A stretch of 64,000 bases of DNA from Inonotus obliquus (lineage: Eukaryota; Basidiomycota; Agaricomycetes; Hymenochaetales; Hymenochaetaceae). Made by a program: the position numbers and the translations under genes. The notes under the pieces are model-generated. The model made no database searches, was not told where the DNA came from, and was given only the letters and a program-made list of their open reading frames with translations. Positions 17,600-54,166 of the stretch are shown in pieces. Location: assembly GCA_032164295.1 (NCBI GenBank), contig JAJHTX010000012.1, positions 930,001 through 994,000 of the forward strand, written 5' to 3'. Every line of letters begins with the position of its first letter. Position 1 is the first letter of the stretch.

Positions 17600-18122
17600 T
17601 CAGTTAGCGCGACCTAGCTTCACGATGTCTTTTGCGACATCGAAGACGTCCTCTAATATCTCCTTCTCTTCAGCCTCCTTTTCTTTCAATTCCCGGAGTT
17701 CTTCTTCCGCCATGCGATCCATGGAGAAGCGGGCTAAACTCTTAGCCTTGTACGACTTCAAAGCTGGAGCAGACCGTCGGAGGTGGTCGATGCGCGCTTT
17801 CACTCTTAAGAGTGCCTGGACCTTGGTCGCATAGCTGTCTGAAAGCTGCTTGAAAGCCTCGAGAAGCTGTTGGCGATGGATCGTCTCTTGCCAAGGCACC
17901 GCAGAAAATGGCTCTGGTCCTGAGATTCTTTTATGGTTCTCACTAATGGTTAAATCGTGAGCGGATTTTAAGTTTTGAGCGATTGAACAAAGATCATACG
18001 CACAGGAGAAACTTCGAAGCCTCATGCTCGATTCTATCGCACATGCTCCAGGAAGACATGAATGTTGCGTCCTCGTGTGGCTTTGAGCTTGCAGATTCGG
18101 GCAGATTAAATCCAACGGGCAT
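17600..18122 (-). CDS. Helical charged protein, array family copy A
   Basis: Not recognised. Two exons, 18004-18122 (119 nt) and 17600-17942 (343 nt), split by a 61-nt GT..AG intron, give 153 aa plus stop. The N-terminal part contains SKPHEDATFMSSWSMCDRIE. Exon 2 begins ENHKRISGPEPFSAVPWQE, then a helical region DHLRRSAPALKSYKAKSL and a charged, probably coiled-coil tail ELKEKEAEEKEILED, ending in AKDIVKLGRAN. No signal peptide, membrane segment or known fold is evident. Copy A is the most divergent of the seven (it starts MPVGFNLPESA where the others start MRVRF). A TATA box lies about 135 bp upstream. Confidence 0.7.
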
Positions 18123-18253
18123 GTTTGTTTTCTGTACTAGAAGTGAAGATGTTTGCTCAGAAATGAAATGGATAAAATACAGCCTCGAAATACGCACGAG
18201 CCAGTCGGGAGAGTGCAAGGAGGATGATTTCTACAACCACACACCGCTCACAC

Positions 18254-18263
18254 TTTTATACTG
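18254..18263 (-). promoter_or_regulatory. TATA box of family copy A
   Basis: Minus-strand GTATAAAAGTG about 135 bp before the ATG at 18122. The same box stands at about the same distance in the other copies. Confidence 0.5.
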
Positions 18264-18309
18264 TAAACACCAGCACGCGCGACACGCTTTGACATTAATC
18301 ACAGTTGTG

Positions 18310-18950
18310 GCCTACTCGCCTTTGACAGCGAGGACAGAGCCGATGGGCAAAAGGTTTCGGCGGCTTTCTGTTTGCTTGACGCGACGAATGTCCAGGATTC
18401 AAACCACTAGCACTCTTACTGGCTGCAGGCCTCTCGACCTCCCGTTTATAGTAGCAGCCTTCCTGGGCGGTCGGTAGCACCCCCCCCAACGGCCACAGAC
18501 CGCTACATAATATCCGACAATGGCCCTGGCGAAAGCGAGTTTCTAGGCCACTTCGTTGCTGTTCATTGGCTAGTTAAGTTTCATTACATATGTAGGCCAT
18601 GCCGTCCGATCGCTCTGATACGTCTGCGGTGATACCGCTTGGTTCCTAAAAATTGGACCCTTGCTTTGAGGCAACTGTAGACTCTAGGTTGCCTCCGATT
18701 CCCGAGTCCATGGGTTTACAGAACAATCGTGTGCTAGTGATCGTACTCCTACAAGGCAATCCGGACTCTTTTCTCTCACGATAAGGTTGGGCGTACACAG
18801 TAGAGGGTGTCAGGGACTTAAAATCACGAAACTCAGTGTGTTCTCAGCCCTATTTTTCCCTCCCAGTATCTGGCGCTATTCTTGGTCAAGAGGCATTGTC
18901 ACGGAGAAGTGACCAGTGCACACTAGTTATATTGGAATATTCTAAATAAG
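18310..18950. repeat. Decayed array modules beyond copy A
   Basis: Contains a remnant of the oppositely oriented ORF module (GATGGGCAAAAGGTTTCGG at 18341, matching the 3' end of the copy at 22.2 kb) and then a second piece of the 3' flank (ACGGAGAAGTGACCAGTGCA near 18,900). No intact frame. Confidence 0.6.
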
Positions 18951-19123
18951 ATCATTTACTGAATAATATGTAACTTTACTGAGCGGCGCCGAAGTGTTTG
19001 CAGTTTGATTGACCATTATTACCAGGCGTCAATTGAATTCGAATTTCGGCAAAAAGCGACGTGTCTGTCACGTGGTACATCTTCTCGATACCGTGGGACA
19101 TGACTTCTGTATTTTACTATTTA

Positions 19124-20144
19124 TGGTGACTGGCAATTCCCTGTTGCGCACCGTGCGTTCCCACGGACCTGCCGCGTCGTGCCGGCGATCGACGCAGCAC
19201 TACGCGTTTACCGGTTTTTGAGACCCACATTCAACTTTGTCTTCCTCCATCCACAATGCAGAGACAGCCATTTTTTATGCATTTATGTATTTTAATGCAT
19301 CACTGGAGTAATTCATATAGATTTATTTTGTAATTCTACAAAACCTCACTGAGATACTGGGTATTTATACCCAATATCTCAGGAAGCACACAGTTTATTC
19401 GAAATTTTTTCTATATGAATTGAAGACTTGATTGAGAAAAAAAAGACCATGCTTTGTGCTGGTTGATTCTTCAAGTGGTCGTTGAATAAAGCAACTTGCA
19501 CTGCTCAGTTTGGCCGATGTAAATTGTCCTAATTAGGAAGAAAGAGATCACGTGCTGCTTCAGAAATGTGCTCGACTCACTTCAGATCACTCAAACTGAC
19601 CAGGACTTGAAGCCAAAAAATCACAAAATTATCATTAAGGGCGTTAAATACACGTGGGAGTATTTTGCATCAATATAGAAAGATATATAGTCATGCACTG
19701 AGTCGATATTGCTGCTCATTGATTTGGACAGCCTGTAATTGTCCAATAGAATTAGCAGCAGTAACTGGATGTGCACAATCTTGATGGTCACAGATGACAT
19801 TAACAACCTCATTCAGATCAAGGACACAAATAAGAGAGAAAGATGTTCTGTATTGTCTGTATTATTGGCTTTATAGTTGGTTGTGCAGCAAGGGATTCAT
19901 GCATCTAGCATATATACACGTCAAAATCAGCAAGAAATTGAATACTTTCTATTTTTGTGACATGAGAGGCAATGCCATCTATATACATGAGCGAATGTCA
20001 AAGAAAAGCTAGCTTGGGAGTTGTAGATGTGAGGACAGAAAGGCGGTAAACGCAGATGGTCTTTCATAGCCATATATAGTAAGGTTTGTAACTCCGACTC
20101 AAAAAAAATATCACGCGCGGCAATAGGGGATTGCCAGTCACCAC
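19124..20144. mobile_element. About 1.0 kb insertion with terminal inverted repeats, nonautonomous DNA transposon
   Basis: Shared flank sequence (CTTCTGTATTTAGATAAAGG in other copies) is interrupted here. The insert begins TGGTGACTGGCAATTCC and ends GGATTGCCAGTCACCA, an imperfect inverted repeat. TATTTA stands directly outside on the left (19118-19123) and right (20145-20150) and may be the target duplication. The left side has an extra 8 bp (TATTTTAC), so the exact ends are uncertain. The interior is AT-rich with no transposase frame. A strong hairpin lies at 19349-19382. Superfamily not assigned. Confidence 0.6.
19349..19382. repeat. Near-perfect inverted repeat (hairpin)
   Basis: CTGAGATACTGGGTAT followed by ATACCCAATATCTCAG, with one mismatched pair in a 15-16 bp stem and a two-base centre. 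It lies inside the 1 kb inverted-repeat element. Role unknown. Confidence 0.7.
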
Positions 20145-20492
20145 TATTTAGATAAAGGAAAGGGGAAGCCGGCTTATCACGTGTCACTTACGATGAAACG
20201 ACCGACCACGACCACGAAACTTAATGATTAGGGTACTAGTAGTGTCTTCTTCTTCACCGGCGCCTTCCTGAGACGAGGGCTCACTGGACATACTATAAAC
20301 ACCTTGATGGACACGGTTCAGTTGTCCTTCGACGTGCCAAAGGCTCGTTCGTGTTTGTTCTCTTCTTTCTCTTTCCCGTCCTCAGTGATCGCCCCATTGA
20401 GGCTCACGGTCTATAACCGCTGCAGCGGGAAAGGTATACATTTTTACTTCACCACATATGTTACAGGACACTCCTCTCGCGGAAGACCATGA

Positions 20493-21016
20493 TCAGTCAG
20501 CGCGACCTAGCTGCACGATGTCTTTTGCGACATCGAAAATATCCTCTAAAGTATCCTTCTCTTCAGCTTCCTTTTCTTTCAACTCCCGAAGTACTTCTTC
20601 CGCCTTGCGGTCGATGGAGAGGCGGGATAAACTCCTAGCCTTGTACGACTTCAAAGCTGGAGCAGACCGTCGGAGGTGGTCGATGCGCACCTTCAGTCCC
20701 AAGAGCGCCTGGACCTTGGTGTCATAGCTTTCTGCAAGCTTGCTGAAAGCCCCGAGAAGCAGTTGGCGATGGATCTTCTCTTGCCAAGACAGCGCAGAAA
20801 ATGGCTCTGGTCCTATTATACGTTTATGGTTCTCACTAAGGGTGAAATCGTAAGCGGATTATAGGTCTTGAGCTATTGTACAAAAGATCGTACGCACCAG
20901 AGAAACTGTGAGGCCGCATGTTCGATTCTATCGCACATACTGCGGGAAGACATGGTCGTTGTATCCTCGTGTGGCTTCGAGTCTGCAGACGCGGGCAGAG
21001 CAAATCGCACGCGCAT
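20493..21016 (-). CDS. Helical charged protein, array family copy B
   Basis: Not recognised. Exons 20898-21016 and 20493-20835, 119 + 343 nt, 153 aa. It starts MRVRFALPASADSKPHED and the first exon ends RIEHAASQFL. The intron has donor GTGCGT and acceptor CCCTTAG at the same codon as in all other copies. Exon 2 runs ENHKRIIGPEPFSAL to DIVQLGRAD. It belongs with C, E and F in one subfamily (GLKVRIDHLRRSAPALKSYK). The frame is fully open, although neighbouring modules are broken. Confidence 0.7.
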
Positions 21017-21849: not shown

Positions 21850-22343
21850 ATTGCAACCTCCGGCAAAGGCTGACTCGTACGTCCACATCCTTCCAAAGTC
21901 CAATACCACGCTCATTCTACCTTCTTGGCACGGATTCAAACATATCTGCGTGTACTTCCTAGTAAGTTCTTACCGACTCTCATGATTTCATCTCTATCCT
22001 CGAGGTTTCGGCGTGAGTCTCAGAGGAGGGTTAGGAAGACTATGTGCGAAGCAGACGCAGGAGTCTTGTTGACTATGACCCGTATGAAGGGGATTATGAT
22101 TCCAGAGAGGAGTCCCACGAGTCGAGCTGGGTTGAGATCATTCGCGACTTCCCCGCAACCACATGGATTGAAAGGCCTGAGACCGGATGGAACTGGGTCT
22201 CCTCCCTCCAGTATTGCGTTTCCAGGTATCGTAGAGACTGGCTCAGACGAATGAGGATGGATCCGATGGGCGAAAGGTTCCGGAATATTACTACGGCGAA
22301 TTTCTGTATGCTTGATACGATGGATGCCATTTGTCGGGCCTGA
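21850..22343 (+). CDS. Array ORF family 3, most complete copy
   Basis: Not recognised. The open part from 22044 reads RSRRRSLVDYDPYEGDYDSR, then ESSWVEIIRDFPATTWIERP, WNWVSSLQYCVSRYRRDW and MDPMGERFRNITTANF, ending at a TGA after AICRA (22341-22343). An upstream exon (..RIQTYLRVLP..) ends at a possible donor, and an acceptor would lie in CAGAGGAGGGTTAG; here that join leaves a TAG, so this copy may be broken. It is rich in Arg, Asp and Trp with no signal peptide. It faces away from ORF family 2. Other copies (24.6, 46.7, 52.5 kb) are truncated or frameshifted. Confidence 0.35.
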
Positions 22344-22800
22344 GGTTCCGCCTTGTCTCCTCAGGATTCAAATCACTCACTCATACTAGCAGCAGACCTC
22401 TCAACCTCCCGTTTACAGTAGCAACCTTCCTATGCGGTCGGTAGCACTCCCCCGCAAACGGCCACAGAGCGCTACAGTATATCCGACAATGGCCTTGGCG
22501 AAAGCGAGTTTCTAGGCCACAAGGTAGTACTTCATTGGTGTTCATTGGCTAGTTTAGCTTCATTGTGCCGGTCATGCCGCCCGTTCTCGACTCCCGCCGC
22601 CCGGTCCCTGTAATTTGATGCATCTGCGTTGATACCGCTTGGTTTCTCGATCATGAAACGGTCCCTCGCTTTGAGGCTTCTTTAGACATTGCAGTGTACT
22701 ATATCGTCGGTAGATTATGTACATGTAAAATCTTTCGCATGCACGATCCAGTGTGTCTCTGTTACCACGGGAAACTATGTTAAGCTAAAGAAATGCGTTG
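22344..22800. repeat. Junction between inverted array halves (B and C)
   Basis: The leftward A/B units and rightward C to G units meet here. The stretch holds the 3' flank of ORF family 3 (GAGGCTTCTTTAGACATTGCAGTG near 22,670, also found reversed near 46,230). After it the C-unit module starts abruptly at about 22,805 (CTCAGCTCGGCCACTAATAT). No gene seen. Confidence 0.5.
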
Positions 22801-23155: not shown

Positions 23156-23679
23156 ATGCGCGTGCGGTTTGCTCTGCCCGCGTCTGAAGACTCGAAGCCA
23201 CACGAGGATACAACGTTCATGTCTTCCCGCAGTATGTGCGATAGAATCGAACATGCAGCCTCACAGTTTCTCTGGTGCGTACGATCTTTTGTACAATCGC
23301 TCAAGACCTATAATCCGCTTACGGTTTCACCCTTAGTGAAAACCATAAAAGAATTATAGGACCAGAGCCATTTTCTGCGCTGCCTTGGCAAGAGAAAATC
23401 CATCGCCAACTGCTTCTCGGGGCTTTCAACAAGCTTGCAGAGAGCTATGATAGCAAGGTTCAGGCGCTCTTGGGACTGAAGGTGTGCATCGACCACCTCC
23501 GACGGTCTGCTCCAGCTTTGAAGTCGTACAAGGCTAGGAGTTTATCCCGCCTCTCCATCGACCGCAAGGCGGAAGAAGTACTTCGGGAGTTGAAAGAAAA
23601 GGAGGCCGAAGAGAAGGAGATTTTAGAGGATATCTTCGATGTCGCAAAGGACATCGTGAAGCTAGGTCGCGCTGACTGA
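23156..23679 (+). CDS. Helical charged protein, array family copy C
   Basis: Not recognised. Exons 23156-23274 and 23337-23679, 153 aa. It starts MRVRFALPASEDSKPHEDTT; exon 2 begins ENHKRIIGPEPFSALPWQE and ends KDIVKLGRAD. Very close to copies E and F. A family-specific change is GLKVCIDH where B, E and F read GLKVRIDH. The intron is 62 nt with donor GTGCGT and acceptor CCCTTAG. No frame damage. Confidence 0.7.
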
Positions 23680-24549: not shown

Positions 24550-24591
24550 TCAGGGCCATTGACGGATATACTGTAGCGCTCTGTGGCCGTT

Positions 24592-24622
<31 letters not shown>

Positions 24623-25734: not shown

Positions 25735-26252
25735 ATGCGCGTGCGATTTGCTCTGCCCGAACCTGCAGACTCGAAGCCACATGAGGATGCAATGTCTTCC
25801 TGGAGAATGTGTGATACGATCGAGCACGAGGCTTCACTGTTTCTCCGGTACGTACGATCTTTTGTGCAATCGCCCAAGACCTAAAATCCGCTTATGATTT
25901 CACCCTTAGTGAACAACATAAACGAATTATAGGACCAGTGCCATTCCATGCGGTGCATTGGCAGGAAAAGATCCATCTCAAACTGCGTCTCGAGGCTTTC
26001 ATCCAGCTGTCAGAGATTTATGTGATCAAGGTCCAGGCGCTCTTAAGAGTGAAAGCGCGCACCGAACACCTCCGTCGCTCCGCTCAAGCTTTGATCTCGC
26101 GCAAAGCTAAGAGTTTAGTCCGCTTCTACATGGATCGTATGGCGGAAGAAGTACTCCGGGAGTTGAAGGCAAAGGAGGCTGAGGAGAAGGAGATTTTAGA
26201 GGATGTCTCCGATGTCGCAAAAGACATCATGAAGCTAGGTCGCGCTGACTAA
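25735..26252 (+). CDS. Helical charged protein, array family copy D
   Basis: Not recognised. Exons 25735-25847 (113 nt) and 25910-26252 (343 nt), 151 aa. Two codons shorter in exon 1 than copies A, B, C, E and F, without loss of frame. It starts MRVRFALPEPADSKPHEDAM. Exon 2 has HKRIIGPVPFHAVHWQEK and ARTEHLRRSAQALISRKAKS. It forms a subfamily with copy G. The donor is GTACGT instead of GTGCGT. Downstream, its 3' flank is interrupted at 26,621 by the CACTA-like element and resumes at 42,157. Confidence 0.7.
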
Positions 26253-29265: not shown

Positions 29266-29819
29266 TGTTACAACACCTTTTCCATTTCCTTTATACGGCC
29301 TTTCTTTTATTTTCGTCAAATGCATATTTACATTCCTTACTTAATATATACAGGCTTAGCTAATTACAATCTATAACAACTTTATCCCGCCATTCCCTTT
29401 TGTTCTATTTCCCATTCTATTATTACTCATTCTTGCTGACTCATTATTCTTCTTTCCGTTTAACCCAACGATGCTTACTCATCTTTACTCATTCTTGCTG
29501 ACTTGTCGGGCCCCATTGTTCATTTGTTCATATTTGCTTACTGCTGCGCAGCATCTATTTAGAGTAGAACTTACCCGCGACCAAAGTGAATGTAAGGCTG
29601 GATCAGAGAGCTAGGGATTCCCCACTCTCTTGTTCTAGTACTATCACCAACGTCGCAGGTAAGTCGTACAAATACTTGTACCTTAGTTAGACATGCTAAT
29701 CTAGTACTATCACCTACGTTGCAGACTCCGGTCTCTTGTGATTAAGTGGTAGCTCGTCTTCTTGCTTGTCGACATCTCCAATCCTGTGATCGACGTCTCT
29801 GACTGCGCAAGGCGTAACA
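29266..29819 (+). repeat. 5' LTR of the gypsy element
   Basis: 554 bp, TGTTACAACACC to GGCGTAACA, with a perfect 6-bp terminal inverted repeat (TGTTAC/GTAACA). Confidence 0.92.
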
Positions 29820-30141
29820 TAACAAGAGAGTCTTTTAACTCGTGTCGTAGTTGTCGACGTTAACAACAACTAACTCGTACATGTCTCTGACATCCTCCGT
29901 TCCACCTCTGTTTCTCTCGTTGTCGAAGTCGGTCAGTGGATAGTCGTCGAACCCCTGAGACGTTCGTATACCTACTGTCGTGAAGTGTTGCCCTACGTCC
30001 TTGTTCGACGTAGACAAGACACCTCTCTCTGACAGCGCTACCGTCGGTTGTCGCTTGCGACAAGAAAGTCCAGTAGTGTCTAGCAGTTACTAAATGTTGG
30101 AAAGTCATTCTTTGAAGTGTTGCTGAACCCCCTGAGACGAC

Positions 30142-30963
30142 GTGAGAGTTCACGTGCTATCTGAACGTCGAGTCGATCGACGTTGCATGTCTGGTGTACC
30201 GCGTTCCCTCCGCGAGTATATCAGTTTAATCGAGCTTCATCCCACCCACACTATCTTCGGGTACTACCTCGACGATAACAAACATCTAGTTCCGTTTGAC
30301 GTTGGTATCTACTTCGACGACCCACGTCACTTTCATCGAGTACTCATCTCCTGGGCGCCAACTTTTTGCATTGACGAGCTGTGGACGCCAACGTTAAACG
30401 AATACTCCTCTAATCTTCGACGTTAAACAATCTGGCTCCTCAACGTCGTCGTCGACAATACAAAAAACCCAAGTTGTACATCATCCCTTTCAATTGGCTT
30501 GACTACGATCCAAACGACATTGTTGTAACGACTGACAAATACGGACATTGCCATCCAGTAAAACTCAAATATCGCCCCCAACGTCCAATCGTTGAAGTAA
30601 AACAGGAGGAGGTCGAAGTAAAACTTGAAGAGCTCGACGTCAAGATCGAAGTGAAGGAGGAAGACCTCCTATGTCGACAAAGTGCCTCTAACCCAGGAAC
30701 AGCTAGCCGCACTTCCAAACGGAGCGAAAGTAGACAACTCAGATGACGTTACCGTCACTGACAACGGCAGAGTCCGTGCTTCGTGGTGGTCGGAAAATCT
30801 TAGGTGTTGGACGTCGTGGGCAGACGTAGAACATACGAAGGTTATTAGGTGGAAGCCGAAAGAACCAAAACCGTCAACATCTGCACCAACACCACCTCCC
30901 CAATCTCCCGCTCCCTCGTCACTGTCTCTACCGTCAACGTCAACTGCATTTGGTTTACAGTGA
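30142..30963 (+). pseudogene. Gypsy 5' ORF region upstream of gag, frameshifted
   Basis: Three successive open frames: 30142-30426 (ISLIELHPTHTIFGYYLDDN, SWAPTFCIDELWTP), 30474-30680 (IIPFNWLDYDPNDIVVTTDK, then a Glu/Lys/Val repeat EVKQEEVEVKLEELDVKIE) and 30671-30963 (VPLTQEQLAALPNGAKVDNS, WKPKEPKPSTSAPTPP). They look like one former ORF broken by frameshifts. It lies between the 5' LTR and gag, where gypsy elements usually have only a leader. No family recognised. Confidence 0.5.
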
Positions 30964-30987
30964 ACCCCGTCAAATCCACAAACAACG

Positions 30988-33728
30988 ATGTCGTCGTTCA
31001 CCCAACAACAACTAAAAGACTTCGCTACGCTTATTGCGACGGCAATGGCTACCCAATCCAAACCACCTAAGTTGTCAACGATGAAAGATCTTGGGATCGG
31101 CCGGTATCAGAAGTACCAGACGAGGGGGGTACGATTTAGATGCGTTGGGAGGGCCGGTACGTGGCGGTACTAAGTCGTACAGTCACAGACAAGTCATCAA
31201 GAGAGAATAGTAGGGCCTGGCTGGATTGTTGAGTACAGGAGGCTATAGGTGCCCGCTCAAGAGGCGAAGTATCAGGAGACGATCGATACCGAGACGAATC
31301 CGTCGATACCGAGTCGTCTGGTGTCCGGTATTGCGGTAGAGAGAACGAAGCAGTAGAGAAGACGAGCTGAGGGGGTGTTTCTGATGGGACTAGTTGTGAG
31401 ACGAGAGGCAAGGGCGACGAAGATGATAACGATGACTACTGGTATCGATACCGGCGACTACGAGACGAGACGAATGAACGGGGGCTTGAACAAGATGAGC
31501 AAAACCTGGACCTTCACTCTGGAAGTTCCTCTCAGATTAGCTGGTTCGCTACAGTAGAACATGCAGGCTATAAATACCATAATACCGTAGCCATTCAAGA
31601 TACCAAATGGGGAGTTTTACAAGTCGAATCGTACCACAATCCGGTACAAGAAGGGGAACATAAGATCGAAATGAATGTAAAAATAAAATCAGGGGAAACA
31701 TAAGATGATGAATAAATAAGAAGTTTTATCAGGGGATGGCTAAGAATAGGGTGGGACGAAACAAGAACCCAATGAAAACTCACGACGAGTGATACCGAGG
31801 TAGGGTGGCAGTACCGACGTCGACCAGCGCTAAAATAAGAACATGTCTCAAGCTACTGCATGGGCGCTCCTGGCGATGGCCCTGTTGTCCCCTTCTCCGG
31901 AGAAGCACGTCATCCTGATTTACCTTTGTTCCGGTATCATGATCCGTGTGGCGTCAGTCTGGGCATCTACCGATCGATTGGACGGTGTGCTCCGATGTTG
32001 ACATGTTGGTACAACCTAACCTTAGCAATGGAGTACTCTATCGCTCGGTACCAATCAGTACGCTGGTGATCGTCCCTGGGCATCAATGAGATCGCTTGAG
32101 CCCCTCGATATTGATCGGTACGTGTGGCCTGACTCGACTGGGCATTGCTTGGCTTCCCCTCCGAGTCGGATCAATGGCCTCCTCCGATATCGAAGCAGTG
32201 TATGGCAGACCTGATTCATTTCCCAACCTTCCTCTCGACGTAGATCTCCGAGGGTGTGGTCTCGACCTAGCTCACGTTACGAACTTCGGTACTGGAGTGG
32301 ACCATCGGTATCAACACCAGTATCGTCGGTATCGATGTATGGCGGTTCAGAAGGGCATACCGACAATGATCCAACTCTTTGCAGCAACGTATGGCAGACC
32401 GATCGTATCTTGTGAGCCTTTCCCTCTGGTATAGGCCGTCGAGGGCGTAGTATTGACTAGACGTGGACTATTAGGCATCAATATCAGGATGGGTGGACGG
32501 TACTGTATCGGTATCATCGGTATTGAAGTCTGGTGGTCCGGTACTGTGAGGGAAGACGGGCGTAGGGATTGGTGATTTGGTATTGGCGCAGAAGTCAGGG
32601 ACCAGTTCTCAATCGTTCTTAGCCTTGTCGAATCGCAGAAGCCTCGTACTTTGTTGGAACCATAGGTGTAGATAGGACGGCAGAAGTACCATGGTCCGAA
32701 GAGAAGTAAGAAGCGGTAGAATTGCAGAATTAAGCCCATATCGATCGTAGCCTCCGGTATTACCCTTTATCGCACCACCGACACCATTCACAGGAGGCAA
32801 GAATTACCTCCAATTCCGTCAAGAATGCCTGGCGTACATAAGCGCCAATGACACAAATTCGATCTTCGCTACGGACAAAAAGAAGATCTCATTTGTCCTT
32901 TCATATATGAAGGATGGAACAGCGTCGACGTGGGCTCAGAACTACTACGACGGAATAACGGATGCAAAGGGAACAATTGCGATTGTCGACGCCTTTGACA
33001 AGTTTCTCGAAAAACTCGACCAGTCGTTCAAGGACCCTGGCGAAAAGGACCGGGCTTACACACGATGGGCAGAGATGCATCAAGGAAATGCCGACGCTGG
33101 CGTATTCCTAGCGAATTTCGAAATAGCCATGAGCCAGGCAGGAATTGTAACGATGGACGTCAATGTTGTCCTCCCACAGCTAAAGAAGGCCCTTCGTGAA
33201 GAAGTCGCAACGGCGATCATTCGTCTCCCCAAAACCCCAACAACGTATGATGAAATGAAAGGCTATGCGATAGTCTTTGATGCAAAGGAAAAAGAAGTTC
33301 GTCAGCTGAGACGACAGAATCTACCCTCACAACCACCTCTGCGTCGACAAACCCTCCAGCCGGCACTGCAAAAGCCGACATTGTTCGACCCGTCACACGG
33401 TGACAAAAAGGATGCAACAGGCGTCACTTTTGGCGGTCAAGGCGAACCGATGCAAGTAACTCTTCAACGTCTCCAACGTGATGGAGTGTGCTGGGAATGT
33501 GGCAAGCCAGGTCACATTGCAAGGTGGTGCAAGATGCCCAAGACCCAACAAGCCATCCATGCCGTCGTCGCTGAATTCTCCGACGAAATGAAGGAGCTGC
33601 TGCGAGGTGTGTTGTTTGCGGAAGCAGACATAGCGTCAGCTGCTACGGCTGCGGCACGTCGAATGGAAGAAGAAGAGATTGTCGAAGAAAGTCATACTGA
33701 CGATCAGGATTTTTTGGACAGCCAGTAG
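30988..33728 (+). pseudogene. gag: gag of the gypsy element, split by a 1.67 kb insertion
   Basis: 30988-31098 and 32772-33728 read in one frame when the insertion and one copy of ATC are removed (..STMKDLGI / APPTPFTGG..). The capsid-like region has KNYLQFRQECLAYISAND, SFVLSYMKDGTASTWAQ and WAEMHQGNADAGVFLANFE. A CCHC zinc knuckle CWECGKPGHIARWC lies near 33,490-33,535. The stop TAG is at 33726-33728. It would form the nucleocapsid shell of the particle; here it is interrupted. Confidence 0.85.
31099..32768 (+). mobile_element. GGTA-motif-rich insertion, copy 1 (in gag)
   Basis: 1,670 bp beginning GGCCGGTATCAGAAGTACC and ending CTCCGGTATTACCCTTT, with ATC on both sides (31096-31098, 32769-32771). 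It is dense in GGTA, GGTATC and GGTACC words in both orientations. Contains GGCTATAAATACC, a TATA-like site, near 31,567. No coding region, no clear TIR, no LTR-like TG..CA ends. It is closely related to the insertion at 36,938. Class unknown. Confidence 0.65.
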
Positions 33729-33769
33729 ATGACGTCGATGTCTCTGGCTTAAAATTCTCGGACAATTCG

Positions 33770-34360
33770 TTACACTCCCCAGTAAATTATAATTCGTCAA
33801 ATGTACCACTATTAGATGAGACATTTTCAAATAAAACTGGCAAATTAAAAAACCAAACACAGAGCGAACAATCTGAAGAAAAAGAATTCGACGATGATGA
33901 CTTTGGACTTCTCCTTGACGAACTTGTCAAAGGTCCAGTCGTTAGAAAAGTGGAAGAAGAAAACAAGATAGGATATCGGCAGGAGCTAGACCTATACGTC
34001 GACTTGATTCTTGATGATGGAAGAGTGTTAGACGCCCATGCATTGATACACTCGGGTTGTACAGATTCTTACATCGATGCTGGTTTTGTCAAATGTTACC
34101 AGATCCCGACAAAGGAGCTTCCGTATTCAACGAATGTCATGAATGCTGATGGGACAGTAAACGAAGGGGGCAAGATGACACAATATGTCGAGCTTAACCT
34201 TCGAATTGAGGACCATGAAGAACGGCTGCGTTTACCTGTTCTCACTATTGCGTTGACAAATCTGTTTCTTGGATATTCATGGTTAAATAGGCATAATCTG
34301 TCAATCGACTGGAAATCTGGATGCATCGATTTTGACGATTGTCCAACATCGTGCAAGTGA
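33770..34360 (+). pseudogene. Retroviral-type aspartic protease region of gypsy pol
   Basis: LDLYVDLILDDGRVLDAHAL leads to the active-site loop, which reads IHSGCTDSYID where an Asp-Ser/Thr-Gly is expected, so the catalytic Asp has been replaced by His. Then come the strands VELNLRIEDHEERLRLPVL and LFLGYSWLNRHNLSIDW. The frame ends at a TGA (34358-34360); RT starts in another frame, so pol is frameshifted here. Confidence 0.8.
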
Positions 34361-34423
34361 CATGACACTCCGAAAGCTCGGTATGTTACTCCTCAGTGCA
34401 GAGAATCATCGTGGCCAACATAT

Positions 34424-39075: not shown

Positions 39076-39078
39076 TAA

Positions 39079-40914
39079 TGTTACGACACCTTTTCCATTT
39101 CCTTTATACGGCCTTTCTTTTATTTTCGTCAAATGCATATTTACATTCCTTACTTAATACATACAGGCTTAGCTAATTACAATCTATAACAACTTTATCC
39201 CACCATTCCCTTTTGTTCTTTTTCTCATTCTATTATTACTCATTCTTGCTGACTCATTATTCTTCTTTCTGTTTAACCTGACGACACTTACTCATCTTTA
39301 CTCATTCTTGCTGACTCGTCGGGCCCCATTGTTCATTTGTTCATATTTGCTTACTGCTGCGCAGCATCTATTTAGAGTAGAACTTACCCGCGACCAAAGT
39401 GAATATAAGGCTGGATCAGAGAGCTAGGGATTCCCCACTCTCTTGTTCTAGTACTATCACCTACGTCGCAGGTAAGTCATACAAATACTTGTACCTTAGT
39501 TAGACGTGCTAATCTAGTACTATCACCTACGTCGCAGACTCCGGTCTCTTGTGATTAAGTGGTAGCTTGTCTTCTTGCTCGTCGACGTCTCCGATCCTGT
39601 GATCGACGTCTCTGACTGCGCAAGGCGTTAAATGTGCAAGATCGCGGCCGGTACCGGAGGTACCGGTCGAGGGGTGTATGGTATAAGAATACGGGGAGGG
39701 CCAAATGAGGCAGTACTTATCCAGTACGCTCACGGTACTTGTTGTCTGTAGAAGGGGGATGTAAAGAGAGCCAAAGGAATGGTAGAAAGGGGTGCTGGAT
39801 CAGCTAGATGTCGGGGGGAATGTGTTCTTGTCTGGAATCGAGAGGGTCGGTACCGTGGGAAAAACGTCGGTACAGGTCGGTACTTGAACGAACGGGATCG
39901 GTATGTGCAGAAATGTTGTAGAACAAAAGCTCAGTACAGAAACGAAAGGTGGACGTGCAGAATACGAAGAATAACAAAACGTCGGTACCGTGGGAAAAAC
40001 GTCGGTACAGGTCGGTACTGCAAGGAAACAACTGGCACGGGGTGGTATAGCAAGAAACTGAATGGGAGAGACTGGTGGCTGAGAGTGTTGACTGGACCGG
40101 GAAGGAAACCTGAGCCCTCACACGGGAGGCTAACTCTGAAGGTTCACTTGAGACGGTACTGAGATGGGACTGGGACGAAGCTTGAGAGGAGACTGAGACG
40201 GAACTGAGAAGGGGGTGAGGAAACCTGAGCCCTCACACTAGAGGCTAGCTCCTAAGATTACCTGGAGAGCTACTACGTACAGGAGGAGATATTTATACTA
40301 CTGTACCGTAGTTAGCTCATAAGTCCAAAAGGAGAAAGTAAAAAAGGAAGATCAAAACAAAGAAAAATGTCATAAGAAGAATGATTACAGTAGAGCCATC
40401 AGGGGGACAACAAGAAAGGGTTAGGGAGGACAAGATACCAATGAAAACGTAGCATATAGTACCCCTGAATGAAAAGTCCCCAGGACAAGAGATTTGAACC
40501 CCTGCCAAACGATACCGACGCGTTCCTGGTGGTACCGGACCTGAAAACCTTAACGGATACCAACCCTGAGCTTCCCCAAAGAACCGGCATGCATACTCCA
40601 ACCATCAGGAATGAATACCAGAGAGGGAGACGTCCGATCCATGTCATGAGAGCATGTTGAATTGTCAATTTGTCTCGGTACCGGGTTTCTCGGCACTCGG
40701 TACTCTCGGTATTCTCGGTACCGGGTTTCTTGGCACTCGGTACCGGTACTCTCGGCGTTCGGTACTTCGAGAAATGGGACTGACGGTTTCTCTGGGTGTG
40801 CTGGTGGATACTGGAAGGTGTAGATGGGACTGTACCATAGCATGGGGTAAGCGTAGAATGGGATACCGGGCTTGATACCAAGCTCAGCTGCACGTAGTTC
40901 TCTTCAGCGTAACA
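39079..40914 (+). repeat. 3' LTR of the gypsy element, interrupted
   Basis: 39079-39628 matches the 5' LTR to within six bases of its end. The last bases, (CGT)AACA, are found at 40908-40914 after a 1.28 kb insertion, followed by GCAGC. Confidence 0.85.
39629..40907. mobile_element. GGTA-motif-rich insertion, copy 3 (in 3' LTR)
   Basis: About 1,279 bp, with CGT (possibly GCGT) on both sides. Shares with copies 1 and 2 the GCGGCCGGTA start region, many GGTACC words, a TATA-like GATATTTATAC near 40,290 and a segment with CCAATGAAAAC. It is clearly more diverged. The first 17 bp (TAAATGTGCAAGATCGC) have no match inside copies 1 and 2, but resemble the pol sequence flanking copy 2. Confidence 0.6.
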
Positions 40915-43955: not shown

Positions 43956-43963
43956 CTTCTGTG

Positions 43964-44780
43964 AAAATTAAGCTCCCATACCGTACACGCCCAACCTCAT
44001 CGTGAGAACGCGAGCCCGGAGTATTACCTTGTAGGCGTACGATCACTAACACACGATCGTTCTTGTATTTTTGAAGCAGCATGCAGCAATGACTCCATCT
44101 TACTGCTTCTCGTTCTATTCCAATAGGGCATAGTACGTGAGAACCCTTCTGCGCTTTCTCGGTTTGGCTCCAAGAATATTCTAGTTTGTTGCACTGTAGC
44201 AACTTCCGTAGGCATAGGGAGAAGGATGGATGGGTGCTGGCTGCCAGTGCCTCTATCAGCCCCGGCTCCCAGTCTCCAGAGTCCGCCCGACATCGTGCTT
44301 CGTGCTTCGAGCTGCTCGGCGGGCGAAAGGACTCTGCAGGAGCAAAGTCTTAAGGGAGTGGGCGAGTAGCTATTTTTTTTGCTTGAGAGCACTGATGTTA
44401 GCAGGTGGCGGTTTGAGAACATGAAGTTTTCGGCTACTCCCGCCACCTCTGAGGCGCAGACTACAAACTTCGGTGGCACACCACCAAAGTATTTTTAACT
44501 CTCAAGATACACTTGACTCGGAATTTTCTACGCGTCTGCGCAAAGAAAAGAAAGAAAGAACGACATGCTCACGATTCCCGCTTTCGTAAAAGGAGAGATT
44601 CGGCTTACACGTACTTTGCGGGCGGGAATAAGCGTAGGGTATCAGTGGAACTTTATTTGAATATATAATTAGATATACGGTGCCAAAGTGTTGTACAATT
44701 GCGGGGATTCGTTTTTGATAGGTATGAGAATCTATAGAGAGGCCTAGGTAGCCAGATTCGTTGTCCAACCGAGAGCAAAC
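43964..44780. repeat. Array 3' flank module, copy 1
   Basis: Homologous to 48,910-49,786 and 54,790-55,652. Minus-strand frames (SQTEKAQKGSHVLC, FSNRHLLTSVLSSKK) are shared but shift relative to each other between copies, so coding is doubtful. Confidence 0.55.
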
Positions 44781-46185
44781 TTAGAATCTGGTAATGTCGC
44801 ACCCAAATATCCCTTTACAGATTCCAGTTCAATCAATCCAAGGTACTGACGATGATGAGAGGAAGATTGAACTCACAGTTAAGGAACCAATAATAGGGCA
44901 CGGTAATTCTGCATGTCAAGGAACAAGTAAGTTGCCTATATCTGTATCTATGATGAATTCAAAAGGAAAGCGTGGCGCACTTGTTTCGTATACTGAGTGT
45001 CTGAGTGAAGTATGCAGAACGCCAGAGGAGCCATGCAAGGCGACTACGTTGAGTCGATGAGTAGCCGTACTGATATCGACGGTAGTAGAGGATCTCACCC
45101 AGTTTCGCTTTCCTTTGGACCAGATTCGATCTTCGAGCGGTCGTACAGCGCTTTCCTGAGTGACAATCCGATAATTAGGATCCCGTGTTCCCCAATGTAT
45201 TGAACGGATGGATAACTCACCAGTCTCCTAGGTACGCAAGACTTCCACGGTTATGGAACTGGAACGGCTCTTCATTGGGCTTGTTACGTACAAGGCGATT
45301 CAAGACACGTGTAACGTATTTCGCATTTTGCGAAGCAACTGTACCTAATACACTATCAGAACCAGAACGTTGATTGCATGGTAACAGACCCGCGTACCTT
45401 GAGCTGTAGCAGGTAATGACTCGTCCTTGATAATCGCACAATCTCCAATAGCCCAGACACTTTCGTTGACGGTCCAGTCACTGCGGATGACATTCAAGTT
45501 CTTGTCTGTGTAGAGACTTCAGGTAGACAGAAAGTGACGAAGAGTCAGAATGCTGGGATCGACACGCTTAAAGGAAGTTACCTTCCGGTCTTTCCGTCCT
45601 TATCCACCTCTCCGATGGATTGAATGAGTGGGTTGGGAGCGAGCCCCGTACTCCAGACGAGAATCCCAAAAGGTACTACCCTCGATTCAGACCAATAATA
45701 AGTCGCAACACGCGCAACAGTTATGAATGCATCGCATACCTTCCCCTTGTTCCTTGACGTACAGCACACCCTAAATCGATAATCGTATGAACCAGCGGGT
45801 AAGTTATCTCGCAAAACCAATACATACCCTCTACACGTTCCACGTGGTGTTGAAGTCTAAGATTGATCCCATCTCTGGCAAACTTCCGTTCTGCGTACCT
45901 AAAAGTCAGTTAACTTGAAGGTACACGATCCGAAAGCAGCACCTAGCTCTAGTTTAACTGAATGATAGACGCACTGAGCCAATCCACGTTCGAATCCTCC
46001 AAGTACACGATCCGCGACATCATACAGATTGATTCGCGCGAATCGCGCGAGTTTATCTCCATATTTCCTTCTAATATCCGATTTGATCAAATCATGGAGC
46101 TCTGCAGCGAATTCGATGCCTGTAGAACCTGCACCGACAATACAGAAGTTGAGCAAGTTCCTTCAGTCGATACCCGAGAGTGCAT
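44781..46185 (-). pseudogene. NADH dehydrogenase 3' fragment, large copy
   Basis: About 1.4 kb, matching the 3' half of the gene at 55,653-58,179 including introns: [67 protein letters not shown] and the terminal exon ending at the TAA complement 44781. The homology stops at about 46,185, so the FAD-binding N-terminal half is absent. The ScTGIEF site has Ser-Thr for Pro-Thr. Confidence 0.8.
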
Positions 46186-46559
46186 GCGAAAGATCTCACT
46201 AACATGAATAACTTATAATATTACGAAAATGCACTACAATGTCTACAGAAGCCTCAAAGCAAGGGTCCAATTTTGATCGCATCAGATTACAGGGACCGGG
46301 TGGCGGGAGTTGAGAACGGGTGGTATGTCCCGCATAATGAAACTAACTAGCCAATGAGCAGCAATGAAGTACTGCTTTGTGGCTAGAAACTCGCTTTCGC
46401 CAGGACCATTATTGGATATACTGTAGCGGTCGTGGCCGTTTGGAGGGGAGTGCTCCCGACCGCCCAGGAAGGTTACTACGATAAACGGGAGGTTGAGAGG
46501 TCTGCAGCCAGTATGAGTGAGTGATTTGAAACCTGAGGAGACAAGGCGGAACCTCAGGC

Positions 46560-46990
46560 CCGACAAATGGCATCCATTGTATCAAGCAGACATAAATTCG
46601 CCGTAGTAATATCCCGAAACCTTTCGCCCATCGGCTTTGTCCTCATTCGTCTGAGCCAGTCTCTACGATACCTGGAAACACAATACTGGAGGGAGGCGAC
46701 CCAGTTCCATCCGGATCCAGGCCTTTCAATCTAGGTGGTTGCGGGGAAGTCGCAAATGATCTCAACCCAGTTCGACTCGAGGGACTCCTCGCTGGTATCA
46801 TAATTCCTTTACCCGGACCGTCGTCAACAAGAATCCTGCGTCTGCTACGCACATAGTCTTCCTAATCCTCCTCGCAGATAGAGATGAAATTATGAGAGTC
46901 GGTGGGAAGAGCACGCAGATATGTTTGGGCCCGTGACAAAGAGGTAGAATGAATGTGGTCCTGGAGTTTGGATGGATGTAGATGTACGAG
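46560..46990 (-). pseudogene. Array ORF family 3, frameshifted copy
   Basis: RSRRRILVDDG is followed by a frameshift; the downstream text in the other frame matches the 22.1 kb copy. Confidence 0.5.
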
Positions 46991-47179
46991 TCAGCCCTTG
47001 TGAGTGTTGAAAAAAAGTAGAAGAGAGAATCCACCTAGCAGGGCGAGGAGTTCGAGTATCATCTCGATAGCTGATTCGAGGTAGAAGAGTCAGTTTGACC
47101 AACGAAAGCTACGGTAACGCATGGGCAATAAATCACTCGGTCATTTGATCTTGGCTAGTCGAACGGGACATTGTGAAAT

Positions 47180-47618: not shown

Positions 47619-47625
47619 TATAAAA
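47619..47625 (+). promoter_or_regulatory. TATA box of family copy E
   Basis: TATAAAA 149 bp before the ATG at 47768. Confidence 0.5.
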
Positions 47626-47767: not shown

Positions 47768-48291
47768 ATGCGCGTGCGATTTGCTCTGCCCGCGTTTGCA
47801 GACTCGAAGTCACACGAGGATGCAACGACCATGTCTTCCCGCAGCATGTGCGATAGAATCGAACATGCGGCCTCACAGTTTCTCTGGTGCGTACGGCCTT
47901 TTGTTCAATCGCTCAAGACCTATAATCCGCTTACAGTTTCACCCTTAGTGAAAACCACAAACGTATTATAGGACTAGAGCCATTTTCTGCGCTGCCTTGG
48001 CAAGAGAAGATCCATCGTCAACTGCTTCTCGGGGCTTTCAACAAGCTTGCAGAGAGCTATGATGCCAAGGTCCAGGCGCTCTTGGGACTGAAGGTGCGCA
48101 TCGACCACCTCCGACAGTCTGCTCCAGCTTTGAAGTCGTACAAAGCCAGGAGCTTAGCCCGCCTCTCCATCGATCGCAAGGCGGAAGAAGTACTTTGGGA
48201 GTTGAAAGAAAAGGAGGCCGAAGAGAAGGAGATTTTAGAGGATATCTTCGATGTCGCAAAGGACATCGTGAAGCTAGGTCGCGCTGACTGA
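47768..48291 (+). CDS. Helical charged protein, array family copy E
   Basis: Not recognised. Exons 47768-47886 and 47949-48291, 153 aa. It starts MRVRFALPAFADSKSHED; exon 2 begins ENHKRIIGLEPFSALPWQE and includes ALKSYKARSLARLSIDRKAE. Its frame is open although the flanking ORF family 2 and 3 copies carry stops and frameshifts. Confidence 0.7.
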
Positions 48292-48909: not shown

Positions 48910-49786
48910 CACAATGCCTTCTGTGAAAGATCCCATACCGTACAGACTCAACCTCGTCGTAAGAACGTGGGTATGGATACCTTGTAGGCGTACGATCACT
49001 AGCACACGGTTGTTCTGTAAGCCCATCGACTCGGGAGTCGGAGGTGACCTATAGGCTATAGCTACCGGTATTGTTGATGCAGCATGCAGCAATGAGTCCA
49101 TTTTACTAGTGCTTCTCATTCTATTCCCACAAGGCATGGTACGTGAGGACCCTTTTGCGCTTCCTCAGTTTGGCTCCAAGAATATTTTACTTTGCTGCAC
49201 TGTAAGAAACTTCCAGAGGGAGAAAGATGGATGGGTTCTGGCTGCCAATGCCTCTAGCAGCCCCGGCTCCCAGAGTCCGCCCGACATCGTGATTCGTGCT
49301 TCGACATGCTCGACGGGCGGAAGGGCTCTGCAGGGGCAAAATCTTGAAGTAGAAGTGAGTGGGTAGCGAATTTGCTTTGTTTGAGAGCACTAGTACTGAT
49401 GTTAGCGTACGGACTGCGGAGGTGGCGGTTTGGGAACAAGAATTTTTCTTCTATTTCCTCCACTCCGCGGAGCAGACTACAATCTTCGGTAGCACACCAC
49501 CAAAGAGTTTCTGACTCTCAAGATACGATTGACTCGGACGTTTCTACGCGTCTGCACAAAGAAAAGAAAGAAAGAACGATATGCTCACGATTCCCGCCTT
49601 CGAAAAGTGAGAGATTCGCCTTACAGGTACTTTGGGTGCGGGAATAAGCGTAGGGTAACGATGGAATTCTAATTGAGATATACGGTGCCAAACTGTTGTA
49701 CAATTGCGGGGATTCGTTTTTGATACGTATGAAAATCTATGGAGAGGCCTAGGTAGCCAAGTTCGTTGTCAAAGCGAGAGCAAGTT
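48910..49786. repeat. Array 3' flank module, copy 2
   Basis: Same order of sequence as 43,964-44,780 and 54,790-55,652, with indels. No intact gene. Confidence 0.55.
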
Positions 49787-50090
49787 AGAATCTGGTGATG
49801 TCGCGCCCAAATATCCCTTTACAGATTCCAGTTCAATCAATCCAAGGTACTGACGACGATGAGAGGAAGACTGAACTCACAGTTAAGGAACCAATAATAT
49901 GGTACGGTAATTCTGTATGTCACGACACAAGTAAGTTGTCTATGTATATGTCTATGATGAAGTCAAAGGAAAGCGTGACGCACTTGTTTCGTATACTGAG
50001 TGTCTGAGTGAAGTATGCAGAACGCCAGAGGAGCCTTGCAAAACGACTACGCTGAGTCAATGGGTAGCCGCACCGCTGTCGACGATAGTA
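49787..50090 (-). pseudogene. NADH dehydrogenase 3' fragment, small copy
   Basis: About 0.3 kb: the terminal exons only ([18 protein letters not shown] and the last exon). The homology breaks at about 50,090, where an array module begins (GATAGCTGATTCGAGGTCG). Confidence 0.75.
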
Positions 50091-50219
50091 GATAGCTGAT
50101 TCGAGGTCGAAGAGGCAATTTGACTGACGAAAACCATACGGTAACGCATGGGCGATAAACTCACTCACTCATTTGATCTTGCATAGTCGAGCGGGATATT
50201 GTGAAATTCACTGGAGCAC

Positions 50220-50647: not shown

Positions 50648-50654
50648 TATTAAA
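50648..50654 (+). promoter_or_regulatory. Degenerate TATA box of family copy F
   Basis: The position of the conserved box reads TATTAAA, so copy F may be less active. Confidence 0.4.
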
Positions 50655-50795: not shown

Positions 50796-51319
50796 ATGCG
50801 CGTGCGATTTTCTCTGCCCGCGTCTGAAGACTCGAAGCCACACGAGGATACAACGTCCATGTCTTCCCGCAGTATGTGCGATAGAATCGAACATGCGGCC
50901 TCACAGTTTCTCTGGTGCGTACGACCTTTTGTACAATCGCTCAAGACCTATAATCCACTTACGGTTTCACCCTTAGTGAAAACCATAAGAGAATAATAGG
51001 ACCAGAGCCATTTTCTGCGCTGTCTTGGCAAGAGAAGATATATCGCCAACTGCTTCTCGGGGCTTTCAGCAAGCTTGCAGAAAGCTATGACACCAAGGTC
51101 CAGGCGCTCTTGGGACTGAAGGTGCGCATCGACCACCTCCGACAGTCTGCTCCAGCTTTGAAGTCGTACAAAGCCAGGAGCTTAGCCCGCCTCTCCATCG
51201 ATCGCAAGGCGGAAGAAGTACTTCGGGAGTTGAAAGAAAAGGAGGCCGAAGAGAAGGAGATTTTAGAGGATATCTTCGATGTCGCAAAGGACATCGTGAA
51301 GCTAGGTCGCGCTGACTGA
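50796..51319 (+). CDS. Helical charged protein, array family copy F
   Basis: Not recognised. Exons 50796-50914 and 50977-51319, 153 aa. It starts MRVRFSLPASEDSKPHED; exon 2 begins ENHKRIIGPEPFSALSWQE. Near-identical to C and E in exon 2, whose charged tail ELKEKEAEEKEILED is unchanged. Open frame throughout. Confidence 0.7.
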
Positions 51320-52379
51320 TCATACGGTATGGTCTTCAGCGAGAAGAGTGTCCTTTGACAAAATTGGTGAAGTAGGAATGTATATGTACCCATCCTTTCC
51401 CGCTGTAGCGGTTATAGATTTTGTGCCTCAATGGGGCGATTACTGAGAGAAAGAAGAGAACAAACACGAACGAGCCTTTGGCACGTCGAAGGACAACTAG
51501 TCCGTGTCCACTGAGATGTTTATAGTGTGTCCAGTGAGCCCTCGTCTCAGGAAGGCGCCGGTGAAAAAGAAGACGCTACTAGTACCCTCATCATTAAGTT
51601 TCGTGGTCGTGGTCGGTCGTTTCATCATAAGTGACACGTGATAAGCCGTTTCCCCCTCTCCCTGTATCTGAACACAGAAAACATGTCCCACGGCCACGGT
51701 ATGGAGATGATGTACCACGTGAAAGACGCGTCGCGTTTCGCCGAACGAAATTTCGAATTCAATTTTAAACCGCGATGCCTGGTAATAATGGTCAATCAAA
51801 CTGCAAACACTTCGGCGCCGCATAGCAAAGTTCTATATTATTCAGTAAACGAATTTACTTAGAGTCTCCCAAGGGAGCAATATAGTCAGTGTGCATTTGT
51901 CACTTCTCCGTGACAATGCCTCTTGACCAAGAATAGCGCCAGATACTAGGAGTGAAAAATAGGGCTGAGAACACACTGAGTTTCGTGGTTTTAAGTCCCT
52001 GACACCCTCTACTGTGTACGCCCAACCTTATCGTGAGAGAAAAGAGTCCGGATTGCCTTGTAAGTACGATAACTAGCACACGATTGTTCTGTAAACCCAT
52101 GGACTCGGGAGTCGGAGGCAACCTATAGTCTACAGAAGACCTCAAAGCAAGGGTCCAGTTGTTGATTGAGGAACCAAGCGGTATCAACGCAGACGAATCA
52201 AGTCACAGGGACCGGACGGCATGGCCTACATAATGAAACTAAACTAGCCAATGAGCAGCAATGAAGTGGTCTTTAAACTCGCTTTCGTCCGGGCCATTGT
52301 CGGCTATACTGTATCGCTCTATGGCCGTTTGGGGAGGGGGGGGGGGGGTCTGGGAGGAGTGCTACTGACCACCCACGAG

Positions 52380-52830
52380 TCGGCTATGTCCTCACCAGGC
52401 TGTTCAATCCATGTGGTTGCTGGGAGTCGCGAATAATCTCAACCCAGCTCGACTCTAGGGACTCCTCGCTGGCATCATAATCCCCATCACACGGGTCATC
52501 GTCAACAAGACTCCTGCGTCTGCTTCGCACATAGTCTTCCGAATCGGGCTCTGAGACTCACGTCGAAAGCTACTCACGCATAGAGATGAAATCATGAGAG
52601 TCGGTAGGAACTTACTACGAAGTACACGCAGATATGTTTGAACCCGTGAGAATCTCAGGTCGATAGGCGGGCCACCGAGTGTTCAGATGATGGGTACGTA
52701 GTACATCTCGGAATAGATTTCACGCGTCCAATCTCAACTCCAAGGAGGTAGAATGAGCGTGGTCTTGGACTTTGGATGCACGAGCCCATAGCGACGTATT
52801 GACATTTTCAACATCTTTCACCATGATGTT
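52380..52830 (-). pseudogene. Array ORF family 3, truncated copy with a better-preserved 5' part
   Basis: Minus-strand EPDSEDYVRSRRRSLVDDDP and SLESSWVEIIRDS, then a one-base loss. Upstream, MVKDVENVNTSLWARASKVQ (from about 52,823) may be the true first exon. Its 3' end is cut by a G run near 52,334-52,349. Confidence 0.45.
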
Positions 52831-53070
52831 TCTGGAGTCTACACTCCTTCGACGCGATGCAAATATAAACAAAAGAGGACAAAAAATTATGCTCTTGTGT
52901 GTGTAGGAAAAGATAGAAGAGAGAATCCACTTAACAGGGCGAGGAGTTCGAGTATGTAGTATCTACTATCATCTCGTTAACTGATTCAAGGTCGAAGAGG
53001 CAATTTGACTAACGAATAAATGGTAACGCATGGGCGATAAAATCACTCGATATTGTGAAACTCATTGGAG

Positions 53071-53265
53071 CACACGGGCCACGAAAAGGGTTGCAGAGGC
53101 ACTCAGGGGGCTACATATGCCATTCAAGAACGCCATGACGAGGTCGACGACCAGTACCGGGCGACTGTCAGTAACTATGCTATCCAGACGAGGTCCGTTC
53201 AAGCGCTTAATGCGTGGACCGAGTGGTTTACATCCATGGCTAAAGAAAAGGGGAAATCATGTTAA
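53071..53265 (+). CDS. Array ORF family 2, copy before G (no ATG)
   Basis: GCRGTQGATYAIQERHDEVD to WFTSMAKEKGKSC, open, but lacking the ATG found in the other copies. Probably not translated alone. Confidence 0.3.
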   Translation, partial: HTGHEKGCRGTQGATYAIQERHDEVDDQYRATVSNYAIQTRSVQALNAWTEWFTSMAKEKGKSC

Positions 53266-53500
53266 ATCTAAGAAAAGTTCCTGGATTCCGCAATCCGGCC
53301 ACTAATCCTTATCGATGAGAGTGATATAATCAAGAGGTGTAGATGCCAAGCAACGGAGAGCGGAGTCATTTACGCGAGGCTTCCGAATATGGAAACCAAC
53401 ACAATGAACAGATAATAGGACCCTGTCAAAGGCTATTGGGCCACTACTGTGATTAATGTCACAATGTCAAAGCTTGTCGCGTGTACCGTCTTTTTTACAG

Positions 53501-53507
53501 TATAAAA
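53501..53507 (+). promoter_or_regulatory. TATA box of family copy G
   Basis: TATAAAA 149 bp before the ATG at 53650. Confidence 0.5.
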
Positions 53508-53649
53508 GGGTGAGCGGTGCGCGGCATTGGTTGGTTGTAGAAATCATCTTCCTTCCACTCTCTCGACTGGCTCGTGCGTATTTTCGAGGCTCTAGTTTAT
53601 CCATTTCATCACTGAGAATACATCTTCACTTCTAGTACAGAAAATAACA

Positions 53650-54166
53650 ATGCGCGTGCGATTTGCTCTGCCCGAGTCTGCAGACTCGAAGCCACATGAG
53701 GATGCAATGTCTTCCTGGAGCGTGTGCGATACGATCGAGCACGAGGCTTCACTGTTTCTCCGGTACGTACGATCTTTGTACAATCGCCCAAGACCTAAAA
53801 TCCGCTCACGATTTCACCCTTAGTGAAAATCATGAACGTCTTTTAGGACCAGTGCCATTTCATGCGGTGCATTGGCAGGAAAAGGTCCATCTCAAACTGC
53901 GTCTCGAGGCTTTCATGAAGCTGTCAGAGATCTATGCGATCAAGGTCCAGGCGCTCTTAAGAGTGAAAGCGCGCACTGAACACCTCCGACGCTCCGCTCA
54001 AGCTTTGATCTCACGCAAAGCTAAGAGTTTAGTCCGCTTCTACATGGATCGTATGGCGGAAGAAGTACTCCGGGAGTTGAAGGCAAAGGAGGCTGAAGAG
54101 AAGGAGATTTTAGAGGATGTCTCCGATGTCGCAAAAGACATCATGAAGCTGGGCCGCGCTAACTGA
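53650..54166 (+). CDS. Helical charged protein, array family copy G
   Basis: Not recognised. Exons 53650-53762 (113 nt) and 53824-54166, 151 aa, with the same two-codon shortening as copy D. It starts MRVRFALPESADSKPHEDAM; exon 2 includes GPVPFHAVHWQEKVHLKLRL and ends IMKLGRAN. It lies nearest the NADH dehydrogenase gene, with one 3' flank module between. Confidence 0.7.

Follow-up and report, generated by a model that had tools for sequence, protein, structure and literature searches.

The 64,000-nt stretch of the genome of the wood-decay fungus Inonotus obliquus analysed here (positions 930001–994000 of contig JAJHTX010000012.1, called C12; hereafter the window) contains seven copies, A to G, of a small two-exon gene that, judging from the sequence, very probably belong to a real protein-coding family under selection. 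The account that explains the observations best, and that is considered fairly probable as a whole, is that of a fast-evolving and narrowly distributed family that spread segmentally, whose members fall into two classes kept apart by selection and encode a class-specific helical protein.

When the whole assembly (36.07 Mb in 30 contigs) was searched with the protein, 11 loci were recovered, namely A to G, two more on C12 (H and I) and one each on the contigs C9 (J) and C2 (K). A 1595-bp DNA query taken from unit E retrieved the identical 11 loci, and both searches give lower bounds, that is, at least 11 copies. Ten of the 11 have an intact reading frame, H being the sole split copy. The seven open two-exon frames of the original prediction were found on the sequence copy for copy (Table 1), together with their common intron position. 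Exon 1 measures 119 nt, except in D and G, where it has 113, and exon 2 measures 343 nt in all seven window copies, the two being separated by an intron of 61–62 nt that begins with GTGCGT or GTACGT and ends with TTAG; the product is 153 aa long, or 151 aa in D and G through one in-frame 6-nt (two-codon) difference. The TATA-like box that had been noticed upstream is also present, and its fixed position, about 140–150 bp 5′ of the ATG, extends in the alignment to all ten intact copies, with TATAAAA in nine and TATTAAA in F. Because TATTAAA is frequent genome-wide (1823 + 1784 occurrences), the motif carries no weight by itself, and only its fixed position does.

Purifying selection acts on the family protein. 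The pooled NG86 ratio of nonsynonymous to synonymous divergence (dN/dS) over the 45 pairs of the ten intact copies is 0.39 (bootstrap 0.29–0.51), and fitting a codon model to the coding tree yields an omega of 0.42, in which 66% of the sites have omega 0.21 and the remainder are neutral. Neither estimate is near 1, and omega = 1 is rejected (likelihood ratio statistic 44, p = 3e-11), with the qualification that the p-values for selection are optimistic, since copies linked by exchange do not count as independent observations. In the true forward frame, which has this pooled ratio, no stop occurs across the ten copies, whereas the two alternative forward frames contain 67 and 82 stops at dN/dS of about 1.3; one of the three reverse frames likewise reaches 0.39, but with 28 stops. 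Gap runs tell the same story, as exon 2 has none and exon 1 only the 6-nt one of D and G, that is 1 in 462 exon nt, whereas 330 nt of upstream flank have 23 and 320 nt of downstream flank have 28 (7–9 per 100 nt). In a neutral simulation that modelled stops and no indels, a mean of 1.33 of ten frames stayed open at the lengths of the coding tree, and all ten did so in 0 of 3000 runs, in 7 of 3000 at half lengths and in 32 of 3000 at 0.35 of them.

The original prediction had offered either selection on the protein or very recent spread. The former is upheld by omega below 1, the near absence of exon indels, the neutral simulation and a homologue in another genus, described below. The latter is not supported by dS, which ranges from 0.09–0.16 within class I and 0.12–0.28 within class II to 0.31–0.41 between classes and 0.45–0.72 to copy K on C2, from which dN amounts to 0.17–0.25.

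The profile search for homologues suggested at the outset gave one result. With a profile of ten sequences, run on a database of 5.77 billion proteins from which 3926 candidates were scored, the single homologue found was FOMMEDRAFT_152761 of Fomitiporia mediterranea, an uncharacterized protein of 158 aa (E = 2.5e-19), with an alignment that covers 82% of the query at 36% identity and runs through the exon junction. Aligned with five of the copies, it leaves 31 of 160 columns invariant. It resembles the family in being homologous over both exons and predicted helical, and differs from it by a 7-residue insert and by being the only match found in F. mediterranea. This homologue supports the gene model independently of the host genome. 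Its locus name was absent from the literature searched, and no Pfam family was matched by it or by copies A, C, G, J and K (five of the ten intact copies).

The coding trees separate class I (B, C, E and F) from class II (D, G, I and J), with A intermediate and K as the outgroup. Support for the split is 99–100 in the trees of the whole coding sequence and of exon 2; the exon 1 tree places J beside class I, with support of 51. The classes are interspersed in the array, where D and G sit among class I neighbours. On average, they differ by 0.188 across exon 2 and by 0.151 across exon 1, but by 0.069 at −330 to −151 and 0.055 at +121 to +320, which is about the within-class level in those flanks. 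Of the fixed differences between the classes, exon 1 contains 6, exon 2 contains 29, the intron contains 2 and the segment from −150 to 0 a single one; there is none at −360 to −151, and downstream 2 fall within the first 120 nt and 1 within the following 200 nt. Thus, 35 of 462 exon sites are fixed versus 4 of 680 flank sites (p = 1e-10). Under alternative three-to-five or four-to-four splits, each flank region has at most 3 such differences, and the next best split reaches 8 in the exons, versus 35 for the classes.

The fixed class changes are also rich in amino-acid replacements, being nonsynonymous to synonymous in a ratio of 27:6 (2 ambiguous omitted), versus 63:56 within classes (1 ambiguous omitted; p = 0.003). 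The same test applied to K versus all other copies is not significant (24:14 versus 102:65, p = 0.86). A codon-position bias is present within each class. Moreover, the class-specific residues, 21 in all, are concentrated in a segment termed here arm 1 (residues 50–117), which contains 18 of them (p = 2e-4, with arm limits picked after the data were seen).

Further evidence on the history of the copies comes from E and J, which have in common a junction between a duplicated block and a second repeated block, X, that is spanned nowhere else in the regions searched; yet E belongs to class I and J to class II. The simplest reading of these sequences is that gene bodies would have been swapped among blocks while selection kept two protein types apart. 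As for the conversion originally proposed, exchange among copies is plausible, but if it took place, it left the between-class coding difference intact instead of erasing it, and the flank trees give no proof of it.

Copy K gives a view of deeper divergence. Its exons differ from the rest by 0.178 at first, 0.188 at second and 0.346 at third codon positions, and its non-coding DNA by about 0.17 in block X, 0.16–0.18 upstream, 0.114 in the intron (62 nt) and 0.44 in the 3′ flank beyond +120. The third codon positions are thus about twice as divergent as the adjoining decayed block X, and the intron is the least divergent. A tentative reading of this excess is that older coding lineages lie within younger flanks.

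The protein is predicted to be helical and coiled-coil-like, and it probably folds as a hairpin. AlphaFold2 predicted exon 2 alone as a single helix at residues 17–112 (predicted local distance difference test, pLDDT, 87; predicted template modelling score, pTM, 0.38), and FOMMEDRAFT_152761 as helices at 19–56, 63–113 and 117–157 after a short low-confidence helix (pLDDT 74, pTM 0.55). Residues 62–158 of the latter model align with antiparallel coiled coils, e.g., the LSD1 tower and prefoldin, and it is these matches, together with the helix break at 113–117, that argue for the hairpin. Considered as a possible secreted effector, the protein has, to the eye, no extended hydrophobic core in its N-terminus, MRVRFALPASEDSKPHED (no signal-peptide predictor was used). 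Agreement with the Fomitiporia protein is 19/35 in the last 36 residues, or arm 2, and 20/67 in arm 1; in C, G and K, arm 2 is also amphipathic, with a period of about 3.55. Models and conservation together suggest a conserved C-terminal arm (about 118–151) joined to a variable specificity arm (50–117).

Taken together, the family would have spread through segmental duplication, and ectopic recombination would swap gene bodies between blocks, with selection keeping the classes distinct. The protein would then work by class-specific self-assembly or by class-specific binding of a partner; self-assembly in particular is the best guess, though somewhat less likely than not. A number of observations weigh against parts of this account. 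The fixed ratio of 27:6 exceeds the within-class one but is not very far from the neutral expectation of about 2.6:1, so that constraint may also have been relaxed during the class split, and the codon model M2a finds zero positively selected sites on the coding tree. Trees built from the flanks are compatible with the class split (approximately unbiased test, p = 0.34 upstream and 0.053 downstream), and because they are not significant, gene-body exchange is argued from the counts of fixed differences and the E/J junction. Exon divergence equals or exceeds that of the neighbouring upstream non-coding DNA, which a simple tree fails to explain. As for the protein, the exon 2 model is unbroken rather than a hairpin, both models were built on 10–11 sequences, and the structure matches are generic. 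The two arms agree nearly alike with K (25/36 in arm 2, 44/68 in arm 1), and arm 2 of the Fomitiporia protein lacks the amphipathic period.

The surroundings of the copies bear on how the family spread. The copies lie in blocks that differ in content and orientation, some of which include a piece of a neighbouring gene, and these features make segmental duplication with ectopic recombination a better fit than transposition. The pair of blocks at 43957–46182 and 54798–57025 also points to segmental duplication; the junction common to E and J is that of the first of them with block X, and the second leads into an apparent NADH-dehydrogenase host gene (by eye; Pfam was blank in the one frame scanned). 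Block X carries a neighbouring open reading frame, ORF 2, which had been described as decayed. This holds on C12 and near J on C9, where its matches contain stops or are no more than short fragments; it is open at C2 alone (C2:2398020–2398796, 265 codons), where it encodes a hydrophobic stretch and then an acidic region and sits between an eIF4E gene (Pfam IF4E) and copy K. No codon periodicity was found in ORF 2 when the C2 copy was compared with the others.

Other explanations were weighed against this account of segmental spread and class-keeping selection. The family might be an ordinary host family, retained for dosage or for two sub-functions (e.g., as a cytoskeletal, chromatin or stress-related coiled-coil protein), with an incidental repeat setting; this is possible but doubtful. 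Purifying selection, the codon-position bias in both classes, the conserved upstream region with its TATA box and the homologue in another genus all speak for this, but a housekeeping gene would rarely be distributed as narrowly as the searches made here indicate, or diverge as fast (dN 0.17–0.25 to K), and no Pfam family was matched.

An unlikely alternative is a killer meiotic driver or poison–antidote family, in which spores lacking a class would be killed by it and arm 1 would match antidote to poison. It would account for the multiple copies, the apparently patchy distribution (one homologue found) and the location among repeats, and also for two divergent classes within common flanks whose class residues cluster in one arm. 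The wtf genes of fission yeast are likewise a multi-copy family, shaped by recombination between copies, and their products span the membrane several times and come in two forms, one the poison and the other the antidote. Pfam includes a WTF model; neither this family nor Mug135_C (PF08593) was matched at E <= 1 by copies A, C, G, J and K or by FOMMEDRAFT_152761, nor did these six proteins show any other driver domain, and separate poison and antidote products were not seen.

Known driver families are multi-copy and fast-changing, as reported for tdk (PMC12930445) and Spok (PMC6660238) and as wtf illustrates. The tdk killer drivers are described as multi-copy, patchy and fast-evolving, with homologues also in a wood-decay basidiomycete and proposed as possible drivers in mushroom-forming fungi; they encode bipartite proteins, with the domain IPR013902 (PF08593) at residues 269–340 of Tdk1, and have high pseudogenization as a signature (PMC12930445). 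The present family resembles them in its multiple copies, apparent patchiness and fast evolution, but PF08593 is unmatched and pseudogenization is low, with ten of 11 copies intact, which weighs mildly against a driver. The Spok spore killers of Podospora, for their part, occupy different chromosomal places, two members lying inside a large block (PMC6660238). The members of the present family are scattered in a similar way, but nuclease and kinase domains are predicted in the Spok products, whereas the proteins here have 151–153 aa, are modelled as helices and lack any such Pfam match. The broader proposal of a killer-driver or self-recognition family built on a small coiled-coil protein, in which selection would maintain two distinct classes even as recombination moves gene bodies from one duplicated block to another, is also judged improbable.

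It is more improbable still that some undescribed mobile element multiplies together with the gene, either as its cargo or as a gene of its own. Copies do occur on three contigs among transposon-like repeats, but the blocks vary in content and orientation and in part include a fragment of an adjacent gene, as in segmental duplication, and no common element ends were seen in the block comparisons, where boundaries vary by copy (no search was aimed at terminal repeats, target-site duplications or a transposase). Finally, the idea that a frame open by chance was recently amplified as non-coding DNA, for which the decay of the adjoining ORF 2 would speak, is contradicted by omega below 1 (p = 3e-11), the near absence of exon indels, the neutral simulation and the homologue in another genus, and is almost certainly wrong.

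The remainder of the window holds several other elements. A Gypsy-type retrotransposon spans 29266–39628; its long terminal repeats are 96.4% identical, and of its several separate frames the final one resembles a chromodomain by eye. A 1.7-kb repeat occurs twice inside it (31098–32775 and 36937–38664) and again, whole or partial, at C12:1014472, 1046307 and 1062688. Fragments of the first 450 nt of a further block, Z (49068–50092), were found on C3, C4, C5, C9, C11 and C13, indicating that it contains an older dispersed repeat. Two adjoining genes for class II peroxidases, which share 78.7% identity over part of their length, lie on the minus strand at 59118–62802; for the one at 61511–62802, joined from two exon frames, the nearest solved structure is the versatile peroxidase VPL2. 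Open frames at 13623–15349, also on the minus strand, resemble a cohesin subunit gene by eye, the Pfam matches of frame 14474–15349 being below the cut-off.

Table 1. Family copies, promoter boxes and repeated blocks (window positions unless a contig is named)
Feature	Position	Strand	Details
Copy A	17600-18122	-	exon 1 18004-18122, intron 17943-18003 (61 nt), exon 2 17600-17942; 153 aa; intermediate between classes
Copy B, class I	20493-21016	-	exon 1 20898-21016, intron 20836-20897, exon 2 20493-20835; 153 aa
Copy C, class I	23156-23679	+	exon 1 23156-23274, intron 23275-23336, exon 2 23337-23679; 153 aa
Copy D, class II	25735-26252	+	exon 1 25735-25847, intron 25848-25909, exon 2 25910-26252; 151 aa
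Copy E, class I	47768-48291	+	exon 1 47768-47886, intron 47887-47948, exon 2 47949-48291; 153 aa
Copy F, class I	50796-51319	+	exon 1 50796-50914, intron 50915-50976, exon 2 50977-51319; 153 aa
Copy G, class II	53650-54166	+	exon 1 53650-53762, intron 53763-53823 (61 nt), exon 2 53824-54166; 151 aa
Copy H	C12:1056001-1057822		exon 1 interrupted by ~1.3 kb insertion related to window 39625-40909
Copy I, class II	C12:1070656-1071177		
Copy J, class II	C9:592894-593417		
Copy K, outgroup	C2:2399530-2400053		
TATAAAA box, copy E	47619-47625	+	149 bp before ATG; position conserved in alignment
TATTAAA box, copy F	50648-50654	+	position conserved in alignment
TATAAAA box, copy G	53501-53507	+	position conserved in alignment
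Block X between B and C	21864-22621	+	decayed ORF 2
Block X upstream of E	46278-46995	-	decayed ORF 2, oriented away from E
Block X upstream of G, shortened	52210-52652	-	G tract at break
Duplicated block	43957-46182	.	second copy, 86.7% identical, of block 54798-57025

No Pfam model was matched by the family members scanned, and the sole homologue found is uncharacterized. The literature searched on drivers in mushroom-forming fungi appears sparse, and the genes described here are a concrete, testable example of what may be a selfish or self-recognition family in such a fungus. They also show that genes within transposon-rich arrays can stay under clear selection while their neighbours decay.

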